A stretch of 64,000 nt of DNA from positions 1 through 64,000 of the forward strand of contig DASXEJ010000381.1 in assembly GCA_036490175.1 (NCBI GenBank). Reading direction: 5' to 3'. Source of the stretch: Pirellulales bacterium. Its GTDB lineage: Bacteria > Planctomycetota > Planctomycetia > Pirellulales > JACPPG01. The translations under genes were made by a program, and so were the position numbers. Below the pieces are notes generated by a model that saw nothing but the letters and a program-made list of their open reading frames with translations, did no database searches and had not been told where the DNA came from. Shown piece after piece: positions 1,973 to 55,733 of the stretch; position 1 is the first letter of the stretch, and each line of letters opens with the position of its first letter.

Positions 1973-2614
1973 CTATAGCAGTTTTTTGCCTTTGATATTC
2001 GATGGCAGTATGACGATTTCTTTCTCGTTTCTACCGTTGAAGTACGCGATCACATCTTTCTTCTGACACGTGCCAGTTCTTACGACGGGTTTGTTCGTGC
2101 CGAAGCATAATCGTTTGGCAAACCATTTCGCCTTAGCCTTGTCCACAGTCCATGAAAGTCCGTTGTGTTCGCCACCACGATAGATGGTGAGGACGTCGGG
2201 CAATTTCTCGAATGCCTTCCGGTCGTCCTTTTCCATGATGTGATGCCGCATGGATCTCGTCGCCGAGAGAAACGATTTCCATAACTTCATTTCTTGCCAA
2301 AGGAATTCGGAATCAATCCAAATCTTGCCTAGTAATCGCCAGAAATCTTCGTCTGGTGCGTCTTCCATCGGTAGGTCGAGGAATGCCCTAAGCCGATCGG
2401 TCCTAGGGTGCATAAATACGTATGCTTCCCAATTTCCATCGGCGATGGCCTTATCTAGCGTTGATGTCATCGACTCCATTTTGTTCTGGACTAACGCATT
2501 GAATTGTGCGGCAAGGACTTCGATGTCTGCCGACCACACCTTCGGTTTGTCGTTTTTGCTCTTCTTTTTGGCAACCTTCTTCGACGATTTCCGCGTAGTC
2601 TTGCCCTTGGCCAT
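1973..2614 (-). CDS. Possible ADP-ribosyltransferase-fold protein of the element
   Basis: 213 residues from the ATG at 2614 (GGGGGTGAG upstream; an in-frame GTG at 2668 has no SD). A Lys-rich N-terminus (about residues 3-24) precedes a helical middle. The C-terminal 75 residues have the order expected of an R-S-E class ADP-ribosyltransferase: TIYRGG with Arg, GLSWT with Ser, then NEKEIVI with a Glu-x-Glu. The phrase 'YRG ... GLSWT ... A-WFA' recurs in phage and plasmid proteins as I know them. If active it would transfer ADP-ribose from NAD to a host or phage target; no immunity gene is apparent. Activity and even the fold remain inference. Confidence 0.5.
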   Translation of the reverse strand: MAKGKTTRKSSKKVAKKKSKNDKPKVWSADIEVLAAQFNALVQNKMESMTSTLDKAIADGNWEAYVFMHPRTDRLRAFLDLPMEDAPDEDFWRLLGKIWIDSEFLWQEMKLWKSFLSATRSMRHHIMEKDDRKAFEKLPDVLTIYRGGEHNGLSWTVDKAKAKWFAKRLCFGTNKPVVRTGTCQKKDVIAYFNGRNEKEIVILPSNIKGKKLL

Positions 2615-2922
2615 GCTCACCCCCGGTGCGGTCAGATTCGTGGTGGATAAAAACCCATTTTGCTCCACGAATATAATCTAGGGCTGGCCTATCCTCCCAC
2701 TACCAAGTGGAATTGGTGTAATGCTCATTCGTTGGGCTTGCTTTTTCGCAGTCGCGGGAGCGATTTATAGTGCTCTTTTCTTCGTAATTTCTAGTGCTTT
2801 CAAACACCACACCACCAATACCACCCCTATTACGACCTTTGCGTCTTCAAGAAACCCCTATTTTTCTAGGGTATTTCCATGTCGTGGGGTGTCACAAAAC
2901 GTAGTGTAAAAACCCCAGTTCA
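2615..2922. other. Intergenic stretch in the element, with a weak hairpin
   Basis: About 300 AT-richer bases without a supported gene. CCCTA (2856-2860) and TAGGG (2867-2871) form a short stem about 50 bases past the stop of the minus-strand gene ending at 2923; it may help end that transcript. CCACT/AGTGG near 2699-2712 is another small palindrome. The minus strand also shows a TATATT that could serve as a -10 for the downstream gene, but no matching -35 is evident. Confidence 0.35.
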
Positions 2923-3117
2923 TCAGTGCCTAGAATGGTTGATAAAGAGCTGGTGCTGTGCGAACCGTTCCCATACCTCTTCCACGTCACGTAGCACGCA
3001 TTCAACCTCGACCTTGGCTGTCCAGTCGCCAGTTGATGCCATCAGTTTACGCATCGAATTGCGGGCCTCGTGCAGATGACGCATCACGCTGTTATGCAAC
3101 TGCTGTTGTTGGGTCAC
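2923..3117 (-). CDS. Small helical protein overlapping the polymerase-like gene
   Basis: 64 residues from a GTG at 3117, preceded by GGAGAG with a six-base spacer; this fits better than the in-frame ATG at 3153. The start lies inside the 3' end of the polymerase-like gene (stop at 3092), an overlap of 26 bases that implies translational coupling and a linked role. The sequence (Gln-rich start, then EARNSMRKL and EVECVLRDVEEVWERF) looks all-helical, possibly coiled-coil. No homologue recognised; an accessory or processivity factor of the polymerase would be a reasonable guess, nothing more. Confidence 0.55.
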   Translation of the reverse strand: MTQQQQLHNSVMRHLHEARNSMRKLMASTGDWTAKVEVECVLRDVEEVWERFAQHQLFINHSRH

Positions 3118-4366
3118 GATAGCTCTCCAAACTGAGGTTAGGCCGAACTCCATAGCGGTTGAATTCGGCCAGGATCATTCGTCGGACCAGCCCTACATCT
3201 GCACGCTTCATCAGGAATGAATCATGCACGGTATACAGAGCTAGTTTGGGCCGTTTGGCCCTGATCTTGTTGCAAATCCCTCTGATAAAAATGGTGGCTT
3301 CGTAGTTTTGCAATATCCACGCCGATCGGCGGTAGTCGGTTCGCTTTAACTCCTCAAGCATGGCAGCCACTGAGGGATAGCGATCCTCAAACCGGTTACG
3401 CAATTTCGACCGCCATGACGGTTTGCCGAAAAATACCTCCGCGTAAAACCGAGTCTTAAACCGGTTGCGATCCTCGCCCCTCTCCATCAGGCTTTCGTAA
3501 AACCGCCCTCGCTCGCATAGCTCGATATACTCCTCCACGTCAGGGTGTCGATCTGCCTTGGTCGCGGGTTGTTGGTCCGCATACCGATAAGGATCTCTGC
3601 CATCCTCGAACGTACGCAGCAACAATCTCTGCTTACTTTTCCCGGCTCGAAAAAACTGCCTTGCACAAATGCCAGCGATAAGCGGCTGGCTGTTGGCTAG
3701 GTCGAGTGATACCAGCGGTTCGCCGTCGACCCGCAAGCAGGGGCGTAGCTGCTTGGCAAGTGACGTTATCGGGGTATGCACACGGCCGAACCGATCGCAC
3801 GTCAACGGTAGCTCTCCATCGACGAACTTCTGGCAGGTTTCCAGCAACTGCAATCGGTACGCCCCTACCGTCAACGTGCTACCCTCATCAGGCACCATCG
3901 TGGCTACGATCGACTCTGCCAGCGGCATGTCAAACGTCAGCACCGCTAGCCTTCGCTTAAGCCATTCATGCACCGGCAGCAGCGATACCGTAGCGGTCCC
4001 ATACGCGACCCGAATGGCGTGGTCGACCGATTCATCACGGCACCTCACTCGGCGGGTGTGACGATAGCCTGGGGCCAGTCGAAAGCCATACGACTTGTGG
4101 CCCTGTTGGGCTTGCTTGTCACACTGCACTACTCCACTGTCAATCAGTGCATTGCGGAGTGTCTTGTAGACACTGACGGGAATGACTTTCGTGAGATAGT
4201 CGTACTTGAGCCGTATGTACCCTCGGTTGTCTGCCTGCCAACTAATCCACTTCCAATGCAGCAGATTCAAAAAGTAGTGGGCGTAGTCGCGTTGCGACTT
4301 GGGGAACATTTTTGGGTCGTACATCACTGGGATGTAGAACGATGCCGGTTTATCCGTCCATGCCAT
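3092..4366 (-). CDS. Compact family A DNA polymerase-like protein of a mobile element
   Basis: 424 residues. Three motifs in order match the family A palm and fingers: motif A LDLANSQP (Asp222), an O-helix-like motif B with Arg300, Lys304, Thr305, Tyr308 and Phe312 (the R-x3-K-T-x2-Y-x3-aromatic pattern of T7 DNA polymerase) before a Gly, and motif C VHDS (His381, Asp382). FGRVHT at 193-198 resembles the conserved GR-x-[HS] stretch before motif A. There is no 3'-5' or 5' exonuclease domain, and at 424 residues it is much smaller than PolA. The N-terminal 120 residues may be a DNA-binding or priming part. It probably replicates or repairs the element. The motif A spacing (Asp to Gln five residues, not three) and the Ser in place of the motif C Glu are unusual. 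The structured leader suggests tight translational control, as for plasmid replication proteins. Confidence 0.7.
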   Translation of the reverse strand: MAWTDKPASFYIPVMYDPKMFPKSQRDYAHYFLNLLHWKWISWQADNRGYIRLKYDYLTKVIPVSVYKTLRNALIDSGVVQCDKQAQQGHKSYGFRLAPGYRHTRRVRCRDESVDHAIRVAYGTATVSLLPVHEWLKRRLAVLTFDMPLAESIVATMVPDEGSTLTVGAYRLQLLETCQKFVDGELPLTCDRFGRVHTPITSLAKQLRPCLRVDGEPLVSLDLANSQPLIAGICARQFFRAGKSKQRLLLRTFEDGRDPYRYADQQPATKADRHPDVEEYIELCERGRFYESLMERGEDRNRFKTRFYAEVFFGKPSWRSKLRNRFEDRYPSVAAMLEELKRTDYRRSAWILQNYEATIFIRGICNKIRAKRPKLALYTVHDSFLMKRADVGLVRRMILAEFNRYGVRPNLSLESYRDPTTAVA

Positions 4367-4372
4367 GTCGAA

Positions 4373-4440
4373 ATTCTTCCTTTCAAATGGGTGACCCGAT
4401 CGGCTGTCATGCGAAAGGAAGAATCACAACAGCCGATCGG
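4373..4440 (-). promoter_or_regulatory. Interleaved inverted repeats (possible pseudoknot) sequestering the polymerase SD
   Basis: Two perfect 12-bp inverted repeats are interleaved. In minus-strand order: S1 arm CCGATCGGCTGT (4440-4429), 4 bases, S2 arm ATTCTTCCTTTC (4424-4413), 5 bases, S1 arm ACAGCCGATCGG (4407-4396), 11 bases, S2 arm GAAAGGAAGAAT (4384-4373). The last arm contains AAGGAAG, the SD of the polymerase-like gene (ATG nine bases on). The topology is that of an H-type pseudoknot, or of two alternative hairpins with loops of 21 and 28 bases. Either way S2 hides the SD. Full-length formation of both 12-bp stems at once may be sterically hard. Confidence 0.7.
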
Positions 4441-46056: not shown

Positions 46057-46103
46057 GCAGCTCTCGCCGATCAGAGTTGAGGAGACGCATCGGTTTGGCG
46101 CAT

Positions 46104-46139
46104 AAAAAATGCGTGCCGCGCACGAGGCGCGGCACGCAT
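46104..46139 (-). terminator. Intrinsic terminator of the blaI-blaR1-like operon
   Basis: ATGCGTGCCGCGC (46109-46121) and GCGCGGCACGCAT (46127-46139) form a perfect 13-bp stem with a five-base loop; on the minus strand it runs into six T (46109-46104). It lies 17 bases past the BlaR1-like stop at 46157. Confidence 0.9.
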
Positions 46140-46156
46140 GCTTGTCAAATATCTCG

Positions 46157-47893
46157 TTAGCGGGCAGACAAACTTAAGTTCACGGGCTCGCCCCCTGCGA
46201 TCGTGAACATGGCCTTCAGTAATGCCGGGTCTAGATCATTCGGAAGCAGTCGGACCGATCCGTCGTCAACGGCCACCATGATGCCGCCGAATTCCTTTGC
46301 CAGGCCGGCCTTGGGGTGGTCGGCGTCGAACTGCCAATCGTCAGGCTTGGTCCAGGGAATAGCGTGATCTTCGTCCACTTCCACAACCGCGATCGTGTTT
46401 GAAAGTCCGTCGGTAATCTGCATCAATTTGACGCCGGTCTCGCCGGGGAACGTGGTCACGGCACCGCGCGGTGTCAGATACACGGTCCGGCCGTCGGTCA
46501 GTTTCGAATGGGGCGACTTGTACGTCGCAGGCATCTTGGCGATCAGCGCCTTGTTGTGGTCGCTATCCCACGGCTCATCGAGATGGAATTCCTTGTAGAG
46601 ATTTTTTTGATCGAGGTACGGCAACACGGCGACGCGCCAACTCAGCAGCGGTTTACCATTCTTGGCAATGTAGGCGGGAGGGAAGGCTTTCGACTCGTCC
46701 GTGGCGGCAAAGTTATGATTTGCCAGCATGATCTGCTTGAGATTGTTCATATCGAGTCGTCGATCGCCCGCTTGGTTTTCGGCAGATTTCTTTTCAGGCT
46801 CGGTTGCGGCGGGCTGCTTGGCCTCTTGTGCCACGAGTTTCCAAGGAACCACGCTCACGAAGGCTGCGACGACGAGCGCGCTCGCAGCGACAATCAGATA
46901 ATTGCGAGTAATCGGTTTGACGCGTGTCATGGATAGAATTCTCCTTTCCAGGTTTCCAGAAGAACCAAAAACGCCTGCAGTGGCGAATGACGGACGCAGG
47001 CACGCCTCGGGGCGAGTGGCAAGCGACAGCAACAGACGGCCATATTCGACCGGCCGCGCGATACCGCGATCGAGCACCAATTCGTCGCAGGCCGCTTCCT
47101 GGGTCTCGGACCAGCCGCGTGCCATGAGCCACACCAGTGGATGAAAGAAAAACAGGGAACGGACCGCCAGCGGCAGCCAATTCCAGGCCAGGTCGCGTCG
47201 CTGCAGGTGTGCCAGCTCGTGCCCGGCCATGACGCCGATTTCGGCATTGTCAAATGTCGCCAAAACATCATGCGGAAAAATGATTGTCGGCCGCACGATG
47301 CCGACGATGGCCGCGCAGGCCGCCGTACGCGACACGCGCAGCTCGGGCAAATGCCTCAGACCAAGACGCCTCGCTTGCTGCCGGCAAAGCGAGCGGAGCG
47401 ATCGAGCGCGGACAGCCACGCTGAGACGAACCAGCCGGCGGGCAGCGCTCCACTGCCGCACGGCAATCACGATCGAAAACAGCACACCGATCAGCCAACA
47501 AAAGCATGCGACGATCTTTGCGACGCGCGCAACGGCGGGAGCAACGGCACCATGGGTCTTCGAGGCGGCCTTGGTCTGGCCGTACTGTTCAACTTTACCA
47601 AGCTGTGTCAGTTGGGACGCGTTCGTGGCCATAGCCTGGGCTGGCGCCAACGACGCCGTGTTAGGCGGCAGCACCGGTACGTCTACCGGCATGGCCCAGA
47701 CTATGGCCACGAGCAATTTCACGCACGCCAATCGCCACATCCAGCACACGACGCGCGGCGACAGAAACGTACACCTACACGACAAGAGCCAGACGATGGC
47801 CAGCACAATGCCCCCTTGCCAGGTGGCGCGCCACATAGCGTCGAACCACGACTCGGTCCACGGCCCGATGTATTGCAGAAGAGTATTCATCAT
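46157..47893 (-). CDS. BlaR1-like M56 metallopeptidase with DUF1559 sensor domain
   Basis: 578 residues. An M56 peptidase of the BlaR1/MecR1 class: membrane helices near 28-37, 53-68 and 125-145, zinc motif HELAH at 225-229, and EAACDELVLDRG later. A final helix (about 334-354) leads outside to a DUF1559 domain (380-578: NNLKQIMLANHNF, KPLLSWRVAVLPYL, DGRTVYLTPRG, DGLSNTIAVVEVD, PWTKPDDW). In BlaR1 a penicillin-binding domain sits there; here DUF1559 takes its place as the likely sensor. Signal sensed outside would activate the peptidase to inactivate the BlaI-like repressor. Start overlaps the blaI stop in ATGATGA. Confidence 0.85.
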   Translation of the reverse strand: MMNTLLQYIGPWTESWFDAMWRATWQGGIVLAIVWLLSCRCTFLSPRVVCWMWRLACVKLLVAIVWAMPVDVPVLPPNTASLAPAQAMATNASQLTQLGKVEQYGQTKAASKTHGAVAPAVARVAKIVACFCWLIGVLFSIVIAVRQWSAARRLVRLSVAVRARSLRSLCRQQARRLGLRHLPELRVSRTAACAAIVGIVRPTIIFPHDVLATFDNAEIGVMAGHELAHLQRRDLAWNWLPLAVRSLFFFHPLVWLMARGWSETQEAACDELVLDRGIARPVEYGRLLLSLATRPEACLRPSFATAGVFGSSGNLERRILSMTRVKPITRNYLIVAASALVVAAFVSVVPWKLVAQEAKQPAATEPEKKSAENQAGDRRLDMNNLKQIMLANHNFAATDESKAFPPAYIAKNGKPLLSWRVAVLPYLDQKNLYKEFHLDEPWDSDHNKALIAKMPATYKSPHSKLTDGRTVYLTPRGAVTTFPGETGVKLMQITDGLSNTIAVVEVDEDHAIPWTKPDDWQFDADHPKAGLAKEFGGIMVAVDDGSVRLLPNDLDPALLKAMFTIAGGEPVNLSLSAR

Positions 47894-48285
47894 TTGCTCT
47901 CCTTATCGCGGGCTTCGAGTTCTCGCAGCAATTGTTCGACGCGGCGCGCTTCGGCCTCGGTCAGGTTGGGAGCCTTGGCGAGATAAGCGATGAAAGGGGA
48001 CATCGAGCCGCCCAGCACATCCTCGACAAAGTTGCCCACCAGGCCGTGCAACAGGTCGGCCTTGGTGATCTTGGGCCGGTACTGATGCACGCCGTCGACC
48101 TTGCGGCGGCCGAGATAGCCTTTGCTGCGCAGCCGCTCCATGATCGTGAGCAGCGTCGTGCGGGCCTGGCCCGAAGTTTCGGCAAAATACCGGGCGACTT
48201 CGCGCACCGTGATGGGATGGTGGTCGGCGACGTATTGCAGCACGTCGAGTTCCAGCGGACCGAGCGATTCACGCGGGGGCGACAT
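47890..48285 (-). CDS. BlaI/MecI-family repressor
   Basis: 131 residues from ATG 48285 with AAGGAG upstream. Winged-helix domain (LGPLELDVLQYVADHHPITVREVARYFAE...ARTTLLTIMERLRSKGYLGRRKVDGVHQYRP) and a C-terminal dimerisation helix. Represses its own operon via the palindromic sites upstream (48302-48343); relieved when the BlaR1-like partner is activated. Four-base overlap with the partner gene. Confidence 0.93.
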   Translation of the reverse strand: MSPPRESLGPLELDVLQYVADHHPITVREVARYFAETSGQARTTLLTIMERLRSKGYLGRRKVDGVHQYRPKITKADLLHGLVGNFVEDVLGGSMSPFIAYLAKAPNLTEAEARRVEQLLRELEARDKESK

Positions 48286-48301
48286 AGTGGGTCTCCTTTG
48301 C

Positions 48302-48344
48302 CTATGCGTGTAGTCAGTGTATCGAAGACTATGCGCGTAGTCAA
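48302..48344 (-). promoter_or_regulatory. Promoter and tandem operators of the blaI-blaR1-like operon
   Basis: On the minus strand TTGACT (48344-48339) and TACACT (48321-48316) are 17 bases apart, a sigma-70 promoter. Two near-identical palindromes overlap it: CTATGCGTGTAGTCA (48302-48316) and CTATGCGCGTAGTCA (48329-48343), 27 bases apart; the inner one reads GACTATGCGCGTAGTC, near-perfectly symmetric. Placed over the -35/spacer and over the start point, they are the expected BlaI-type operators and imply autoregulation. Confidence 0.85.
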
Positions 48345-48454
48345 CAGCGCGCGGAAAATAATTGAGGATCGAAGCGCACCGCAAGCCGTGGCGAGCAATG
48401 CGCGAACAGAGACGCATCGCGCCAGGGTGAATTCAGCCACGAACCCGTCACCGC

Positions 48455-49249
48455 CTAATCCGGCAGCCGGACGGGCTCGCCCCCGTTGCGGGTGAAGAGG
48501 GCCGTTAAGGTTGGCTCGGCAATCGTATCGGCGATGAAGTGGACCGAGCCATCGCACAGCGCGGCGTGGAAACCGCCCAGGTAGTGCCCGCCGAGTTCGG
48601 CCTTGGGGTCCTGCGGTTCAAACTTCCAATCGTCGGGCTTGGTCCAGGGAACCGCGGCTGCGTCGTCGACTTCGACCACGGCGATCGTGTTTGAGGTGCC
48701 GTCGGTGATATGCGCGAGGCCGATATTCTTGCCTCCGGGAAATGACGTGTTGTCGCCGCGCGGTGTGACGTACACCGTGCGACCGTCTTTAAGTACCGAT
48801 GTCGGGGCCCGATAAACGTCGGGCATCTTTGCGACGAGCGCCTTGTTGTATTCGCTATCCCATGGCTCGTCGCGATGAAAATCGTTGTAGAGGGCCTGCT
48901 GTTCCAGGTAAGGGAGCAATGCGACCCTCCAGCTCAAAAGGGGTTTCTCCGCTGTGCCTGAGTACGCCGCAGGAAGCTTATTGAAGGTGTCGTGATAGTT
49001 GAGCATCGCGAGCATGATGCGTTTCATGTTGTTTGTCGTTTTTTGCTTATTCCTGGCCTCGGCCGCTGCCGCTTTGGCGCCCTCCTTGTCATCATCCGCG
49101 AGCGCGACGGCAAACACGGTTGTGGGCCGCTTCGTAGCGGCGTCTTCGGCCGCGAGCCGTGCGACGAACAGGCCCCCTACAAAGAAAAGTAGGAAGAATG
49201 CTGTTGAGAAATGATGCCGACAAGCAAGTCGATAGACGCGAACCGCCAT
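48455..49249 (-). CDS. Free DUF1559 protein paralogous to the BlaR1-like sensor
   Basis: 264 residues from ATG 49249 with GGAGG upstream. An N-terminal hydrophobic segment (about 16-36) serves as signal or anchor; it lacks the prepilin-type leader common in DUF1559 proteins. The rest matches the BlaR1-like sensor domain block for block: NNMKRIMLAMLNYHD, KPLLSWRVALLPYLEQ, DEPWDSEYNKALVAKMP, DGRTVYVTPRG, DGTSNTIAVVEVD, PWTKPDDW. Lies just upstream of the blaI-like promoter on the same strand. Could be the ligand, co-sensor or a decoy for the BlaR1-like receptor. Confidence 0.8.
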   Translation of the reverse strand: MAVRVYRLACRHHFSTAFFLLFFVGGLFVARLAAEDAATKRPTTVFAVALADDDKEGAKAAAAEARNKQKTTNNMKRIMLAMLNYHDTFNKLPAAYSGTAEKPLLSWRVALLPYLEQQALYNDFHRDEPWDSEYNKALVAKMPDVYRAPTSVLKDGRTVYVTPRGDNTSFPGGKNIGLAHITDGTSNTIAVVEVDDAAAVPWTKPDDWKFEPQDPKAELGGHYLGGFHAALCDGSVHFIADTIAEPTLTALFTRNGGEPVRLPD

Positions 49250-49339
49250 GAGAAGCCTCCCCCCTCTTTTTTTAGACCGATCCGAAGGCCATATGACCCC
49301 GCGCCGGAAAGTTTCTCGCAAGCGACCGCACGAGGCGTG

Positions 49340-50383
49340 TTATTTATTGAGCCTGGCGGTGATCCACTCGCGCAACTCTAGGAGCACGGCCGGTGAGATC
49401 TCTCCGGCAAAGCCTGGTTCGGTGTTGTCCTTGACTGGTTTCAGATTGTGGCTCGCCCCGGCGACGACAAGAAGTTTATGGTCGTCTGCGGCGCGCGAGG
49501 CCAGGCCCACATCAACGGGCTTGGCGTCGCGCTCGGGCGAAACCTGTACATCCTGCTCGCCAGCGATGACCAGCACCGGGCCCTTGATCCGGGCGGCCAG
49601 TTTGCTGGGATCGGTCGCGAAATTGCTTTGCAGAAATTTGCCGATGTAGGCCGGATAAAGCGCCTGCAGCCCCGCGGGCACATCGCTTGGTACTTTTCCG
49701 GTGTCCTTGATCGCTTGGACCACACGGGCATTCTCGTCAAGAAAATACTTTGTCTGCTCGGGCGTGGCCTTTTGTTTAACCAGCAACCGTACGAGCTGAT
49801 CGTGAATCACCGCGTCGAGCGATCGGCCCGGTGTACTCAACAGAACGAGTACGGCAGGCCTTGCAGGAGTGGCGGCCAGCTTTTCGCCCACGGCTAGCGC
49901 CAGCACGCCCCCCTCGCTATGGCCGAGGATGCCGACACGATCGGCAGCGATTTCCGGCTGCCGCCGGACGAACTCGTAGGCCGCGGCGACATCGTCGACA
50001 AAGTTTTCCCACGAGAAGAACTCTCCATACTGCGCGCGGTCTTTGGGCAACTCGCCGACGTTTGCGTGCATGCCTCGCTTGTCGTACCGCAAGGATGCGA
50101 TACCGTGTTTTGCCAGATCCACGGCAATATCTTTCAGCAGATCGGTGACCAACGTCGGTGCTTGATTGCCGTCGCGGTCTGTCGGGCCGCTGCCGGGGAC
50201 TAGTACCACGGCCGGGAACTTTGTACCCGGTTTACCTTCCGGTAACAGAAGTGTGCCAGCCAAGCTCGTCCCGCCGGCGCCAGGAAAGGTGACGGTCCGA
50301 TCGACGGGCTGCGCCGGCACAGTAGTGGCACAGGTTAAAAATGTGCCAATCAGAATCGCGACAGTTTTTACCAGGCTCGACAT
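49340..50383 (-). CDS. Secreted alpha/beta hydrolase
   Basis: 347 residues with a signal peptide (to about residue 25). LPEGKPGTKFPAVVLVPGSGPTDRDGNQ is the oxyanion strand region, GILGHSEGG holds the nucleophile Ser, GEQDVQVSPERD the acid, and GASHNLK the His. Resembles the S9-like/dienelactone-type hydrolase family found as extracytoplasmic esterases or peptidases. It lies upstream of the DUF1559 gene, 91 bases away on the same strand. Confidence 0.85.
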   Translation of the reverse strand: MSSLVKTVAILIGTFLTCATTVPAQPVDRTVTFPGAGGTSLAGTLLLPEGKPGTKFPAVVLVPGSGPTDRDGNQAPTLVTDLLKDIAVDLAKHGIASLRYDKRGMHANVGELPKDRAQYGEFFSWENFVDDVAAAYEFVRRQPEIAADRVGILGHSEGGVLALAVGEKLAATPARPAVLVLLSTPGRSLDAVIHDQLVRLLVKQKATPEQTKYFLDENARVVQAIKDTGKVPSDVPAGLQALYPAYIGKFLQSNFATDPSKLAARIKGPVLVIAGEQDVQVSPERDAKPVDVGLASRAADDHKLLVVAGASHNLKPVKDNTEPGFAGEISPAVLLELREWITARLNK

Positions 50384-50459
50384 CTGTTCCCGCCCTCGGT
50401 GTCGAAATCGCCCTGACAGTCTAACCGTGCGAACCGTGCATGGACAACGGCCGGTCGTC

Positions 50460-51602
50460 CTAGCGCGACGTGGCGCTCGGATTGCTTGTCGGGAGCGACG
50501 GCGTGGAGAGCCTTCGTCCAGAGGCCAGGCTGTTTGTCCGGACGGTTTCTGTCGCTTCGCCGGCGGCGTTCAGGAATGCGTCGACTTGCTGGCCCACGTA
50601 CATGTTGTCGGCCCCGGGCGCCAGGGCGTAGATTACTTGCAATACGCGCGTGTCGACACGCTCGACGCTGTTCCCGATGAGCGAAACCTTAGGCTGAACA
50701 TAGGGCTCGACGCGCACGAACGACAAGGCGATCTTCTGGCTGGCATTGCCGCGGACGCATGCTTCGCCGGGAATGCCAGGGCGAAAGCGGGCGATATCTT
50801 GCTCGTCGATATCGATCCGTACGTGCATTTGCGATAGATCGCCCAGCACCACCAGCGGCTGCCCTGGCGGCGTGCCTACGTACTCGCCTGGGCGCACGTC
50901 GACTTTCAGCACGTGACCGTCGACCGGCGCCCGGATGTGCAGCCTGTCGAGCTCGGTGCGATATTGCTCGACCAGCGTGCGCTGTCGCGCGACGTCGACG
51001 CGGGCCAATGCCTTATCGTGTGTCCAGCTACCGGCCTTGAGCAGCTGATCTTCGGCCTTGGCCTGCAGCATCGCTTCGATCGAGCTGGTCAGCGACTGGC
51101 GCCGCTGAATGACTTCTTCCTCGGGCACCGCGCGGTGGGCCAGCAATTTCTCGCGACGTTCGAGCAAGTCGCGCTGGGCCACGACGTCGGCCTCGGCCCG
51201 CCGCACTTTTGCCTCACTGGGCGGAATCTCTTCCGGTCGCGGCATTTCTTCCAGGCGATCGAGCGTTGCCTGCGCGGCGGCCAGCTGCGCCTCGCGCACG
51301 TGCAATTCTGCAAGGATCTGTCGATCGTCGAGGCGGAACAGCGCGTCGCCCGCCTTGACCTGATCCCCCACGTCGACCAGCACTTCGACGACGACACCCG
51401 GTTCGGGCGAGCCGACCTTGATGTTCTCGGTCCGCGCTTCGACAAGGCCAGCAGCTGCGATCACATCTGCATACGGAGAGCGCGCCGGCTCGGCCAGGGG
51501 ACCATGCTCTGGCGGCGCCTGGTGCGTGCGCACCAGGTGATAACTCATGAACGCGATGCAACCGACCGCAATGCCTGGCAAAAGCAATTTACCGAAGGAC
51601 AT
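50460..51602 (-). CDS. DevB-like membrane fusion protein
   Basis: 380 residues. N-terminal membrane anchor (about 5-22), then the HlyD/DevB biotinyl-lipoyl-like half motif SPEPGVVVEVLVDVGDQVKAGDALFRLD, a long coiled coil (about 75-190) and a second half motif with IRAPVDGHVLKVDVRPGEYV. Bridges the inner-membrane ABC exporter to an outer-membrane partner. Last gene of the tetR-devC-devA-devB run, overlapping devA's stop by one base. Confidence 0.88.
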   Translation of the reverse strand: MSFGKLLLPGIAVGCIAFMSYHLVRTHQAPPEHGPLAEPARSPYADVIAAAGLVEARTENIKVGSPEPGVVVEVLVDVGDQVKAGDALFRLDDRQILAELHVREAQLAAAQATLDRLEEMPRPEEIPPSEAKVRRAEADVVAQRDLLERREKLLAHRAVPEEEVIQRRQSLTSSIEAMLQAKAEDQLLKAGSWTHDKALARVDVARQRTLVEQYRTELDRLHIRAPVDGHVLKVDVRPGEYVGTPPGQPLVVLGDLSQMHVRIDIDEQDIARFRPGIPGEACVRGNASQKIALSFVRVEPYVQPKVSLIGNSVERVDTRVLQVIYALAPGADNMYVGQQVDAFLNAAGEATETVRTNSLASGRRLSTPSLPTSNPSATSR

Positions 51603-52330
51603 CAGGCTTCTCCCGCCGGCGTGCCGGCAGTTTGCGTGGCGACGTGTTCGACCCGCCCGTCGGCCATGGAAATGATCCGGTCACCGTAAGAGAAAATGCG
51701 GCTGTCGTGCGTCACGACGATCACCGCGCGATCCTTTTGAACCACCACGCGGCGGACGAGTTCGAGCACCGTCTGGCCCGACTTGGCGTCGAGCGCCGCG
51801 GTGGGTTCGTCGCACACGAGCAGACGCGGTTCGTGTACTAGCGCGCGGGCAATGGCCACGCGCTGCTGCTGGCCGCCGGAGAGCTGGCGGGGCAGGGCGT
51901 CTGCCCGAGCGCCCAGGTCTACCGCGTCGAGCAGTAGCCGAGCGCGGTGGAGGGCATTGCGCCGGGGTACACGGCCGATCAACAGGGGCACTGCGACGTT
52001 CTCAACCGCCGAGAGTGCCGGGAGCAGGTTGTATTGCTGAAAGACAAATCCAATGTTCGTGGCCCGAAATTGCACCAATTGCCGCGGCGATAATCGCGAT
52101 TGCACGGCGCCGAACACGTCGACCTCGCCCCCGGTGGGCCGCAGCAAACCGGCGATGATCGAGATCAGCGTCGTCTTGCCGCAACCGCTGGGGCCGACGA
52201 GCAATGTCAGCTCGCCAGCATGAACCGTGAGATCGACGTCCACGAGTGCGCGGACCCGCGTATCGCCGGTGCCAAAATCTTTTCCCAGGCTGCGGCAAGC
52301 GACAGCGATAGCGCTGTGGGCCGTGACCAT
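51602..52330 (-). CDS. DevA/LolD-type ABC exporter ATPase
   Basis: 242 residues. Walker [10 protein letters not shown], signature [10 protein letters not shown], Walker [13 protein letters not shown], and H-loop VVTHDSR all present, in the MacB/LolD/DevA branch. ATG 52330 has GAGGG seven bases upstream. Pairs with the FtsX-like permease encoded upstream. Confidence 0.95.
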
Positions 52331-52407
52331 TATGCGACCCTCGGATCTGTTGCCGCGGCCCTTGCGCCCGATAACTCACGATAAGGTGGTGGACCCGCGT
52401 GGGATGC

Positions 52408-52492
52408 CTGGGGTCGGTCGGCAAGCCGTTCCCCGCAATCAAATTGCGGGAGACCCTCCGTCCACTGCGTCCAGTGGGATGCGCGACCCCAG
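52408..52492. repeat. Cloverleaf-like structured element between devC and devA
   Basis: CTGGGGTCG (52408-52416) and CGACCCCAG (52484-52492) are perfect closing arms. Inside lie CGGC/GCCG (52419-52428), CCCGCAAT/ATTGCGGG (52432-52439, 52443-52450) and CCACTG/CAGTGG (52462-52467, 52472-52477). GGGATGC occurs as a direct repeat at 52401 and 52476. This folds as a multi-branch element of 85 bases within a 193-base gap inside an otherwise tight operon. It resembles an inserted REP/MITE-like unit or an RNA element controlling devA. Confidence 0.65.
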
Positions 52493-52523
52493 ACATCGGC
52501 ACGGGAAAGACGCGTTGATTCAT

Positions 52524-53663
52524 TCATGTGCGGAAGACCTCGGCAGGCTCCAGCACCAGCACTTTGCGCGCACTAACGAGACTGGCTAGCACGACGATCA
52601 GGCTCACGGCGCCGGCCGATAGTGCCACGACTTGCCACGGCAGATAAAATCCTGCCAGGTGTGCGAGGTTCTTTGTTCCTTCGAAAAACAGAGCTGTGAG
52701 CCCCACGCCGATTCCAAACCCAATGCAACCCACGATAGAAGCTTGCAGCAGCACCATCAGGATCAAGCGGCCATTGGTCAGCCCCATGGCCTTTAGCGCG
52801 CCGAATTGCCGCAGGTTTTCCAAGGTGAAGAGATAAAACGTCTGGCCGGCGATGGCCGTGCCGACAATGAATCCCAACCCGATCGTGATGCCGAAATTCA
52901 CCGGAATGCCGGTCGAGCGGAGATAGTAACCGACCGTGCGCCACACGAAATCCAATCGAGACAACGCCAGCAAGCCCGTCTGGGCCTGGATGCGGCGGCA
53001 GGTTTCCGGCACGCTCGTCAGCTCGTCGGGCTGCGCGAGCACGAACGACATGCGATTGCGCTCGCGGGCTACAAATTCCATAGCCTGCGTGTAACGGCAA
53101 TACATGATCGGAAATGTTTGAAACGGCGGAGACGCTTTGCAGATGCCGACAATGATCGCGCGCTGGTCGTTCATCTCTAACGTATTGCCCAACGTCAAGG
53201 GCTGGCCGGGCCAGAGATACTCGAAGCCTGCCTTGTCCACGATCACTGCGTCGGGATGGCGCAACTCGCTGAGGGAACCCAAGAGCATCTCGGTGGGTGC
53301 GCCGACCAACGTGTCGTCATCCAATCCCAAAAGCGATACCTGGCGAAAACTGCCGTCGGCCACCCGCGCCCGAGCCAACCCTTTATAGAATCGCACGGCC
53401 CACGAAACGCCGGGCACACCACGCACGCGAAAGACGTCGTTCTCGCCCAGCGGCTTGATCTCGTCGGAATTCTGTACTTCGGGTCGCATGACCCAAATGG
53501 CCGCTTCGCGGATGTCGCTGATCTGGCTGGCCGTGCGGCTCATCAAGCCGACAAAGATCGCCGTCTGCTGCGAGATCAGCAGCGTGCCGAAGGCCACGCC
53601 AAAGATCGTGCCCAGGTATTTGGCACGATCTCCGGTGAGCATTCTCCAGGCGACCCAGTTCAT
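52524..53663 (-). CDS. DevC-type FtsX-like permease
   Basis: 379 residues. N-terminal membrane helix (about 17-37), a large extracytoplasmic domain, then three helices in the C-terminal half (LGFIVGTAIAGQTFYLFTLENLRQFGALKAMGLTNGRLILMVL typical of FtsX-like permeases). Exports a glycolipid or other hydrophobic substrate with DevA and DevB in cyanobacterial relatives. Starts three bases after the TetR-family stop. Confidence 0.9.
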   Translation of the reverse strand: MNWVAWRMLTGDRAKYLGTIFGVAFGTLLISQQTAIFVGLMSRTASQISDIREAAIWVMRPEVQNSDEIKPLGENDVFRVRGVPGVSWAVRFYKGLARARVADGSFRQVSLLGLDDDTLVGAPTEMLLGSLSELRHPDAVIVDKAGFEYLWPGQPLTLGNTLEMNDQRAIIVGICKASPPFQTFPIMYCRYTQAMEFVARERNRMSFVLAQPDELTSVPETCRRIQAQTGLLALSRLDFVWRTVGYYLRSTGIPVNFGITIGLGFIVGTAIAGQTFYLFTLENLRQFGALKAMGLTNGRLILMVLLQASIVGCIGFGIGVGLTALFFEGTKNLAHLAGFYLPWQVVALSAGAVSLIVVLASLVSARKVLVLEPAEVFRT

Positions 53664-54305: not shown

Positions 54306-54617
54306 AGTTTCCGCCTCCGCCAGGGGCGTGGTAAGAGAGTGTCAAAACAGCCGATTAAAACATTTGTTTCAAACGATTATATTAAACACTCATTTCATGG
54401 GCAAGACCAGCCGCCGGGTTTTCCGTGAATCGCGATAAGTGACGGAGCCTAAATGCCATGCGACGCTAGCAGTCACGAGCAAAGCAAAGTTTCTTTGCAC
54501 AATGTCTCTCGGTTTTCTAAGATTAGAAAACCCGCAGACGCCTTCCTCCGTTGCCTGCCGTTTGAACTAGCAGCTTGCCGGTTTGTTTGGCGAGCGCTTT
54601 GCTACGAGGGCCAGACC
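54306..54617. other. Intergenic control region between the exporter operon and the PLP-enzyme gene
   Basis: About 310 AT-rich bases separating the divergent exporter operon and the aldolase-like gene. It contains the TetR-operon promoter and operators (54358-54404) and the SD of the plus-strand gene. Nothing else was recognised. Confidence 0.6.
54358..54404 (-). promoter_or_regulatory. Promoter and likely operators of the TetR/Dev operon
   Basis: On the minus strand TTGCCC (54404-54399) and TATAAT (54381-54376) are 17 bases apart. Immediately downstream are two overlapping palindromes, GTTTCAAAC (54366-54374) and AAACATTTGTTT (54358-54369, five-base arms). They fit a TetR-family operator placed to block transcription start and imply autoregulation. 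Confidence 0.65.
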
Positions 54618-55733
54618 GTGAGCTCCACTTTGCCAGCGCCGGAATTGATCGAGTCGACCAAGGATGCGCTTGATACGCCGGCGCTGTGCCTGGACCTGGC
54701 GGCCATGGATGCCAACATCCGCGCCATCGTCGACGCTTGCCGCGCGCACAACGTCGCCTGGCGACCGCACGCCAAGGGGCACAAGGTGCCGGCCATTGCA
54801 CAGCGCGAAATCGCCGCCGGCGCGATCGGGATCACATGCGCCAAGCTCGGCGAGGCCGAGGTCATGGCCGCCGCCGGCATCGGCGAATTGTTGATCGCCA
54901 ACATGATTGTGGGTCCCATGAAGTTGGCGCGGCTTGTCGAGCTGCGCCGCATCGCCGATCCAATTGTCTGCGTCGATCACATCGACCAGGTGGCCCCCAT
55001 GGCCGAAGCGATGAGTCAGGCCGGCCTGACGTTGAGAACTATGATCGAGGTCGATATCGGCCTGCGGCGCGTGGGAGTGCTGCCGGGTAAAGGGGCGCTA
55101 GCGCTGGCCGGCCAGATTCTGGAGAGCCCTGGTCTCGAACTGGTCGGCATCATGGGATACGAAGGACATTTGTTGACCGTTGCCGACGCGCATGAAAAAG
55201 GGTCGGCCATACGCGCCGCGCTGGGCCAACTGACGGACACGGCCGAAGCGTTGCGCCGCGCGGGCTTGCCGTGCGATATCGTTTCCTGCGGCGGGACCGG
55301 ATCTTATCCCTTTGCTATCCAGCAGCCGGGCATCACCGAGATCCAAGCCGGCGGGGCGATCTTTATGGACGCCTATTACCGCACGCGCTGCCGCATACCC
55401 GACTTGAAGTACGCGCTGACGCTACTGACGACGATCGTCAGTCGACCGGCGCCCGATCGGGCCATCGTCGACGCCGGCCGCAAGTCGATCAACATGGAGC
55501 TGGCGATGCCACTGGTAGCGGGCCGCGACGATATCCGCGTAAAAGGATTGTCGGCCGAACACGGCACGCTGGAACTGGGGCCCACGGCGCGCGATCTAAG
55601 GATCGGAGATCGGCTGGAACTCATCCCCGGCTACGCCGACCTGACTGTGGCACTGCACGACGAACTGTACGGTTTCCGCGACGAACGGCTGGAAGTGATC
55701 TGGCCGATCGAGGCCCGCGGGAAACTGCGGTAA
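54618..55733 (+). CDS. D-threonine aldolase / DSD1-like PLP enzyme
   Basis: 371 residues from a GTG at 54618 (GAGGG upstream). Fold type III PLP barrel; RPHAKGHK holds the PLP lysine. CGGTGSYPF is the phosphate-binding loop, and the C-terminal beta domain ends with HDELYGFRDERLEVIWPIEARGKLR, where DSD1 members carry the metal-binding His and neighbouring acidic residues. Family members split D-3-hydroxy amino acids or dehydrate D-serine. Divergent from the exporter operon. Confidence 0.85.
   Translation: MSSTLPAPELIESTKDALDTPALCLDLAAMDANIRAIVDACRAHNVAWRPHAKGHKVPAIAQREIAAGAIGITCAKLGEAEVMAAAGIGELLIANMIVGPMKLARLVELRRIADPIVCVDHIDQVAPMAEAMSQAGLTLRTMIEVDIGLRRVGVLPGKGALALAGQILESPGLELVGIMGYEGHLLTVADAHEKGSAIRAALGQLTDTAEALRRAGLPCDIVSCGGTGSYPFAIQQPGITEIQAGGAIFMDAYYRTRCRIPDLKYALTLLTTIVSRPAPDRAIVDAGRKSINMELAMPLVAGRDDIRVKGLSAEHGTLELGPTARDLRIGDRLELIPGYADLTVALHDELYGFRDERLEVIWPIEARGKLR

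Follow-up and report, generated by a model that had tools for sequence, protein, structure and literature searches.

What does a receptor of the BlaR1 type respond to when its outer domain is DUF1559 rather than a penicillin-binding domain? The question is raised by a locus in a 64,000 nt stretch of DNA from a Pirellulales bacterium (positions 1 to 64,000 of contig DASXEJ010000381.1, assembly GCA_036490175.1), here called the window; its genome is labelled G000, other G-numbers denote other genomes, C-numbers contigs and L-numbers fetched loci. Along the direction of transcription, the minus strand of this locus encodes an alpha/beta hydrolase, a free DUF1559 protein (P0001), BlaI (P0002) and an M56-DUF1559 fusion (P0003). 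The best explanation, put forward tentatively and at a little short of an even chance, is a BlaI/M56 pair of the BlaR1 type whose sensor slot has been taken over by a DUF1559 pilin head originating in a secreted DUF1559 protein, and whose partner or ligand is common to the sensor and its free relative. At the level of sequence, this explanation is supported by an intact protease core, a sensor predicted to lie outside, an adjoining BlaI gene, twin dyads over the pair's own promoter, and a secreted relative next door, all in one interval.

The protease core of P0003 follows the BlaR1 plan. Peptidase_M56 (PF05569) scores 142.1 bits against a cut-off of 31, and DUF1559 (PF07596) scores 80.7 bits against a cut-off of 23.3. 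Residues H225, E226, H229, D270 and R318 occur in every one of 34 aligned M56 sequences and E266 in at least 90% of them, with H225, H229 and E266 as the zinc ligands; counted from the first histidine, E266, D270 and R318 lie at 41, 45 and 93 residues, the same spacing as in S. aureus BlaR1 (His201, H205, Glu242, Asp246 and Arg294, from the accessible part of PMC9834060). The structure of the core is predicted confidently, and the top Foldseek match of the model is S. aureus BlaR1 (8exs, E = 2.1e-6, prob 1.00), with a target TM-score of 0.56 for the BlaR1 cryo-EM entry 8exr against the predicted core. Further, P0003 has hydrophobic stretches at residues 27-45, 57-75, 127-145 and 333-351, plus one at 240-258 in a re-entrant position. 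Because the HELAH site (225-229), flanked by basic residues, sits between helices 3 and 4, and the final helix (333-351) precedes the sensor, the topology places DUF1559 on the outer side, so that P0003 is assigned the BlaR1 membrane layout with an extracytoplasmic sensor. The neighbouring BlaI protein matches Penicillinase_R (PF03965) at 78.8 bits against a cut-off of 22.6, and its reading frame shares an ATGA overlap with that of the M56 protein (47890-47893).

The sensor carries no mark of beta-lactam recognition. P0003 has no transpeptidase, beta-lactamase or penicillin-binding protein (PBP)-type Pfam match, and neither an SxxK nor a K[TS]G motif occurs after residue 360, indicating that the stimulus is probably not a beta-lactam. 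The NCBIfam model blaR1_generic scores the protein at 83.5 bits against a cut-off of 400; with this score below the cut-off and the penicillin-binding motifs absent, P0003 is classified by sequence as resembling BlaR1 in plan but falling outside the beta-lactam receptor family. A sequence search of the PDB returned no match for P0001 or P0003. An earlier note on this DNA had described a BlaR1-type antirepressor with an outer DUF1559 domain, one that probably responds to something other than a beta-lactam, and had held that a cytoplasmic DUF1559 would speak against it; core residues, fold and topology agree with that description, the predicted sensor lies outside, and the coordinates, strands and gene description given there match the open reading frames (ORFs) and Pfam results.

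What the sensor domain is can be judged from its other occurrences. The genome contains 44 DUF1559 matches, and among 20 of these proteins that were fetched, which are high scorers and not a random draw, 19 carry a prepilin N-terminus as defined by a simple motif; the short DUF1559 proteins examined mostly lack it. In T. immobilis, the prepilin motif and SBP_bac_10 occur together in 91 proteins, according to the available portion of PMC8567305. The prepilin N-termini thus mark DUF1559, by sequence, as probably a pilin-type head domain, and of the earlier description of DUF1559 as a hugely expanded domain without a known function, the expansion stands whereas most members are seen to be prepilin-type.

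Both DUF1559 proteins at this locus depart from that arrangement. Inspection of P0001 and P0003 showed no class III prepilin signal in either; in place of the prepilin segment, the sensor has M56 helix 4 and the free protein has a Sec-like signal, which is its single N-terminal hydrophobic stretch. The free protein matches PF07596 (119.8 bits, cut-off 23.3) and also TIGR04294 pre_pil_HX9DG, the H-X9-DG model (23.3 bits, cut-off 19), which is not among the matches listed for the sensor. The two are 54% identical over 206 aa (E = 3e-72), far above chance, bearing out the earlier observation that they are almost collinear. In the AlphaFold model, the free protein is predicted to begin with a 37-residue helix, and pLDDT exceeds 95 over the domain. 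The globular part of the sensor retains nearly all family-conserved residues, its deviations lying chiefly in the linker before residue 383, and the same conserved residues are kept in the free protein.

These shared residues also agree with a reading close to that of the earlier note, in which DUF1559 (Pfam short name SBP_bac_10) would bind a small molecule or an osmolyte, and the receptor would detect a solute for which the free protein acts as scavenger, carrier or competitor. However, the prepilin N-termini of the genome's DUF1559 proteins point to assembly and not to soluble solute binding, and no significant fold match to solved structures, solute-binding proteins included, was obtained; solute sensing is therefore considered unlikely.

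Two further observations concern the family at large. Most short DUF1559 domains of this kind are C-terminal on proteins of 500-900 aa (L037, L038, L039, L040 and many others), whose N-terminal parts fall into no clear Pfam family and many of which look secreted. A contig labelled Candidatus Nealsonbacteria (L082, JABMRB010000160.1) encodes a planctomycete-type DUF1559 protein, and its bin is probably mixed.

The origin of the sensor was traced in a tree of 76 short DUF1559 domains, five M56 fusions among them, for which the bootstrap is not settled. The free protein, the sensor and a solo secreted protein of G030 form one clade (support 100/94), and the sensor groups beside the G030 protein (support 99/78); from this position, the probable source of the domain is a solo secreted protein belonging to the neighbour's own small clade. 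The five fusions are scattered across the tree, with five label changes needed, two of them forced by starred branches, which makes more than one origin of M56-DUF1559 fusions probable.

The interval in which the free gene and the receptor lie provides the main evidence for a link between them. Four congeners were compared. In G019 and G055, the trypsin-like and HlyD genes that flank the four genes in the window adjoin directly; in G045 and G036, the trypsin-like gene adjoins a homologue of window 54453-55733. The four genes look like one gained block, although loss in the congeners is possible through several events; the GC content at third codon positions (GC3) of the interval is near that of its neighbours, so that a foreign origin is not established. 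With both genes inside one interval that is missing from the congeners, the sequence comparison suggests a connection between the free gene and the receptor in this genome. A search for the hydrolase at E<=1e-20 came back empty for the four congeners and G030, but it had no positive control and shows little. Separately, window 50460-53100, with HlyD, an ABC ATPase and a further gene, is shared with G019 and missing at the locus in G045 and G036, a further variable block of genes at the site of the four-gene interval.

The regulatory sequences point to autoregulation. Two dyads, spaced 27 bp apart between the free gene and blaI, form a sequence footprint that covers the pair's own promoter, and GACTAYNNNNRTAGTC is the likely BlaI operator; the promoter-like site is weak when taken alone (2 found, 0.8 expected). 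The same dyad is found upstream of blaI in C64 of the same genome and in G004, G045, G019, G065, G056 and G064. Exact copies of GACTAYNNNNRTAGTC number 14 distinct sites in seven genomes (1 in the reversed control), 13 of them immediately upstream of a blaI-M56 pair and the remaining one within a long ORF of G019. Two-site arrays with <=3 mismatches occur eight times in 396 genomes of the order (2 in the reversed control), every one before blaI-M56 and none before the free gene. Between 46000 and 52500, no site within 2 mismatches was found beyond the two at blaI; control of the free protein through its own operator was rejected as a candidate, and the hydrolase gene likewise has no such site. 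Regulon genes elsewhere in the genome were also rejected, as matches with <=3 mismatches number 41 compared with 50 in the reversed control, and a 2-mismatch site on C250 and a 3-mismatch site on C3 both lie within long ORFs. In 6 of 11 loci, the gene 3′ of M56 lies on the other strand, and in the remaining five it is separated from M56 by 128-505 bp, leaving no clear operon partner. The only target revealed by sequence is the blaI-M56 operon itself; either there are weak targets besides it, or what counts is the receptor, or its ectodomain, as a product.

In the favoured mechanism, the sensor would bind the partner or ligand of the free protein, which may be an extracellular assembly, of DUF1559 or pilin type, or a molecule bound by these heads. 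Occupancy of the sensor would shift transmembrane helix 4 and signal to the M56 protease, which would then cut BlaI, derepressing the operon and producing more receptor. The free protein would be the functional counterpart of the sensor, with a common partner, by analogy with the BlaR1 sensor and its resemblance to class D beta-lactamases (a comparison made in the part of PMC7593790 available); as its gene lacks an operator, it is probably not a BlaI-regulated product, and it may be a ligand, a co-receptor or a decoy. Since most other occurrences of the outer domain are on pilin-like proteins, and the neighbouring gene encodes a secreted relative, the receptor probably monitors the cell envelope rather than antibiotics.

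Several results weigh against this mechanism. The pilin-like fold match of DUF1559 is weak: on realignment, the sole entries listed with Z >=2 are two type IV pilins, aligned over 110 residues, namely CofA (Z = 3.3) and TcpA (Z = 2.5), and Foldseek with the DUF1559 model found no match at E<=0.001 among solved structures (pilin E above 1). Over the sensor, the AlphaFold prediction for the complete fusion has low confidence, mostly about 45-70 pLDDT, with only 4 alignment rows there. The ligand, partner and inducing signal of the sensor are putative, and no target gene besides the pair's own operon was found, which leaves the response without explanation. Further, M56-DUF1559 fusions, confirmed solely in fetched loci, are present in this genome and in G056, G177, G018 and G110, and the stretches fetched around the latter four contain no free partner (0/4), nor any other neighbour resembling an ectodomain; a general rule of co-occurrence, whose failure the earlier note had named as a refutation, is thus rejected. 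Searches with P0001 found no second pair in 396 genomes of the order and 392 of the phylum (best six candidates per genome scored), and a fusion-profile search of the 392 phylum genomes at E<=1e-60 gave a full-length match only here (best three candidates per genome), a sampling by which other fusions may be missed. The open-access literature searched contains no report of such fusions.

The missing partners elsewhere would fit a free gene that is an unrelated neighbour, one of a common type of secreted DUF1559 protein that has no function in common with the fusion; its lack of an operator and the abundance of DUF1559 genes in the genome, by which such neighbours are not rare, also fit. Yet a random neighbour would hardly fall with the sensor into a three-member clade out of 76 domains, nor lie with the fusion inside one 4.4-kb interval, and this reading is held to be improbable. 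Copying of an ectodomain from a neighbour was rejected as a common pattern, as an ectodomain-like neighbour was seen at only two of 18 M56 loci of this genome (the window and C64), in a survey that skipped proteins with <40 residues after the core, and at 0 of 13 M56 loci of other genomes. The C64 neighbour was rejected as a free effector, being a decayed M56-HlyD copy without HExxH.

The protease core is combined with many outer domains. The closest cores, 39-46% identical, come from C64, G004, G045, G019, G065 and G056, and all share a juxtamembrane VPW.L; their ectodomains include HlyD (C64), PD40 (G004), carboxypeptidase-regulatory plus leucine-rich (LRR) repeats (G019), and one with no Pfam domain (G045). 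Pairwise comparison of five ectodomains revealed similarity only between G045 and G019, which have their last 270 residues in common. The cores of other M56-DUF1559 fusions are merely 19-25% identical to that of the window. As the closest cores bear unrelated outer domains, sequence comparison indicates that core and ectodomain evolve separately and that the sensor is a swappable module. Other M56 proteins of the genome carry POTRA, Poly_export, HlyD, T2SS-T3SS_pil_N, carboxypeptidase-regulatory and redoxin ectodomains.

Such ectodomains are functional parts (for example, HlyD, POTRA and Poly_export), which, with an operator almost solely at blaI-M56 promoters and no clear operon partner 3′ of M56, would suit a self-limiting expression switch of BlaI and protease whose product is the M56-ectodomain protein, perhaps shed by cleavage, but the ectodomain on the same core type in S. 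aureus is a sensor (according to the accessible text of PMC9834060) and the protease would have little reason to stay intact with no signal to transmit, making this the most doubtful of the alternatives.

A broader proposal, speculative and judged unlikely as a whole, is that planctomycete BlaR1-type proteases are interchangeable receptors whose ectodomains mimic components of the envelope machinery (pilin heads, HlyD, POTRA, polysaccharide-export and secretin-type domains) and report on that machinery. Here, a pilin-head mimic would watch a DUF1559 assembly as a proteolytic counterpart of PilS/PilA, and the free protein would be a real subunit or a competitor. PilS itself is not known to bear a pilin head.

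The M56 complement of this genome is large, with about 18 M56 loci and 17 BlaI genes, a set of BlaR1-like receptors with varied ectodomains, secretin-type ones among them. On C64, an intact M56-HlyD gene faces the decayed copy (L186:710-1984 and 2253-4406), which has lost the HExxH part and kept the helix and HlyD. In G177, contig C184 has tandem M56 proteins after one BlaI (L089:2312-7006); the second carries a glycine-rich tail as well as a DUF1559 ectodomain. The features of the locus are collected in Table 1. Terminator-like hairpins number 6 in the region compared with 3.6 expected; scans of the window for tRNA and Rfam families gave no match, nor did a plasmid search with P0001.

Table 1. 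Positions in the window of the genes, domains and candidate regulatory sites of the locus.
Feature	Position	Strand	Basis
M56 metalloprotease, BlaR1-like core with C-terminal DUF1559 ectodomain, 578 aa (P0003)	46157..47893	-	Pfam PF05569 and PF07596; zinc ligands; Foldseek match to BlaR1
DUF1559 sensor domain, residues 368-574	46172..46792	-	local profile match 368-574; family-conserved residues of the globular part
BlaI-type winged-helix repressor, 131 aa (P0002)	47890..48285	-	PF03965; sequence matches to BlaI and MecI structures
Likely BlaI operator 2, GACTACACGCATAGGC	48300..48315		directly after the -10 hexamer
Promoter-like site TTGACT-17-TACACT of blaI-M56	48316..48344	-	promoter pattern scan
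Likely BlaI operator 1, GACTACGCGCATAGTC	48327..48342		overlaps the -35 hexamer; same dyad before blaI in relatives
Free secreted DUF1559 protein, 264 aa (P0001)	48455..49249	-	PF07596; hydrophobic stretch 16-34; AlphaFold mean pLDDT 87.6
Secreted-looking alpha/beta hydrolase, same interval	49340..50383	-	PF12146, 48 bits
Terminator-like hairpin with T run, 3′ of the M56-DUF1559 gene	46109..46139	-	longest stem of those found, 13 pairs
Four-gene interval, missing at the corresponding place in the congeners compared	46057..50459		flank-gene adjacency in congeners

DUF1559 is among the most expanded planctomycete families, with 68 paralogues in P. limnophila, two of them essential (from the part of PMC10632474 available). 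A receptor with a DUF1559 outer domain and a defined operator offers a reporter for a binding event at such a head. The results also suggest a general signalling role for the BlaR1 protease core, as a chassis on which sensors can be exchanged, beta-lactam sensing being one case.

Overall, the system compares most closely with BlaR1/BlaI and MecR1/MecI of staphylococci and Bacillus, with which it shares the M56 core (HExxH...E), four membrane helices plus a re-entrant segment, a C-terminal outer sensor, an adjoining BlaI and dyads over the promoter; unlike them, its sensor is DUF1559 instead of a class D or PBP-type domain, and no beta-lactamase or other operator-bearing target was found. With the planctomycete prepilin-type DUF1559 proteins (SBP_bac_10, H-X9-DG), it shares the Pfam domain and, for the free protein, the TIGR04294 match; in contrast to them, it has no prepilin N-terminus, the sensor being mounted on an M56 helix and the free protein having a Sec-type signal. 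In idea only, it is like Pseudomonas aeruginosa PilS-PilR, where a membrane receptor watches a pilin-type protein, PilS sensing PilA (as given in the available section of PMC6058289); PilS-PilR is a histidine kinase with a response regulator, whereas the system in the window is a protease with a repressor.

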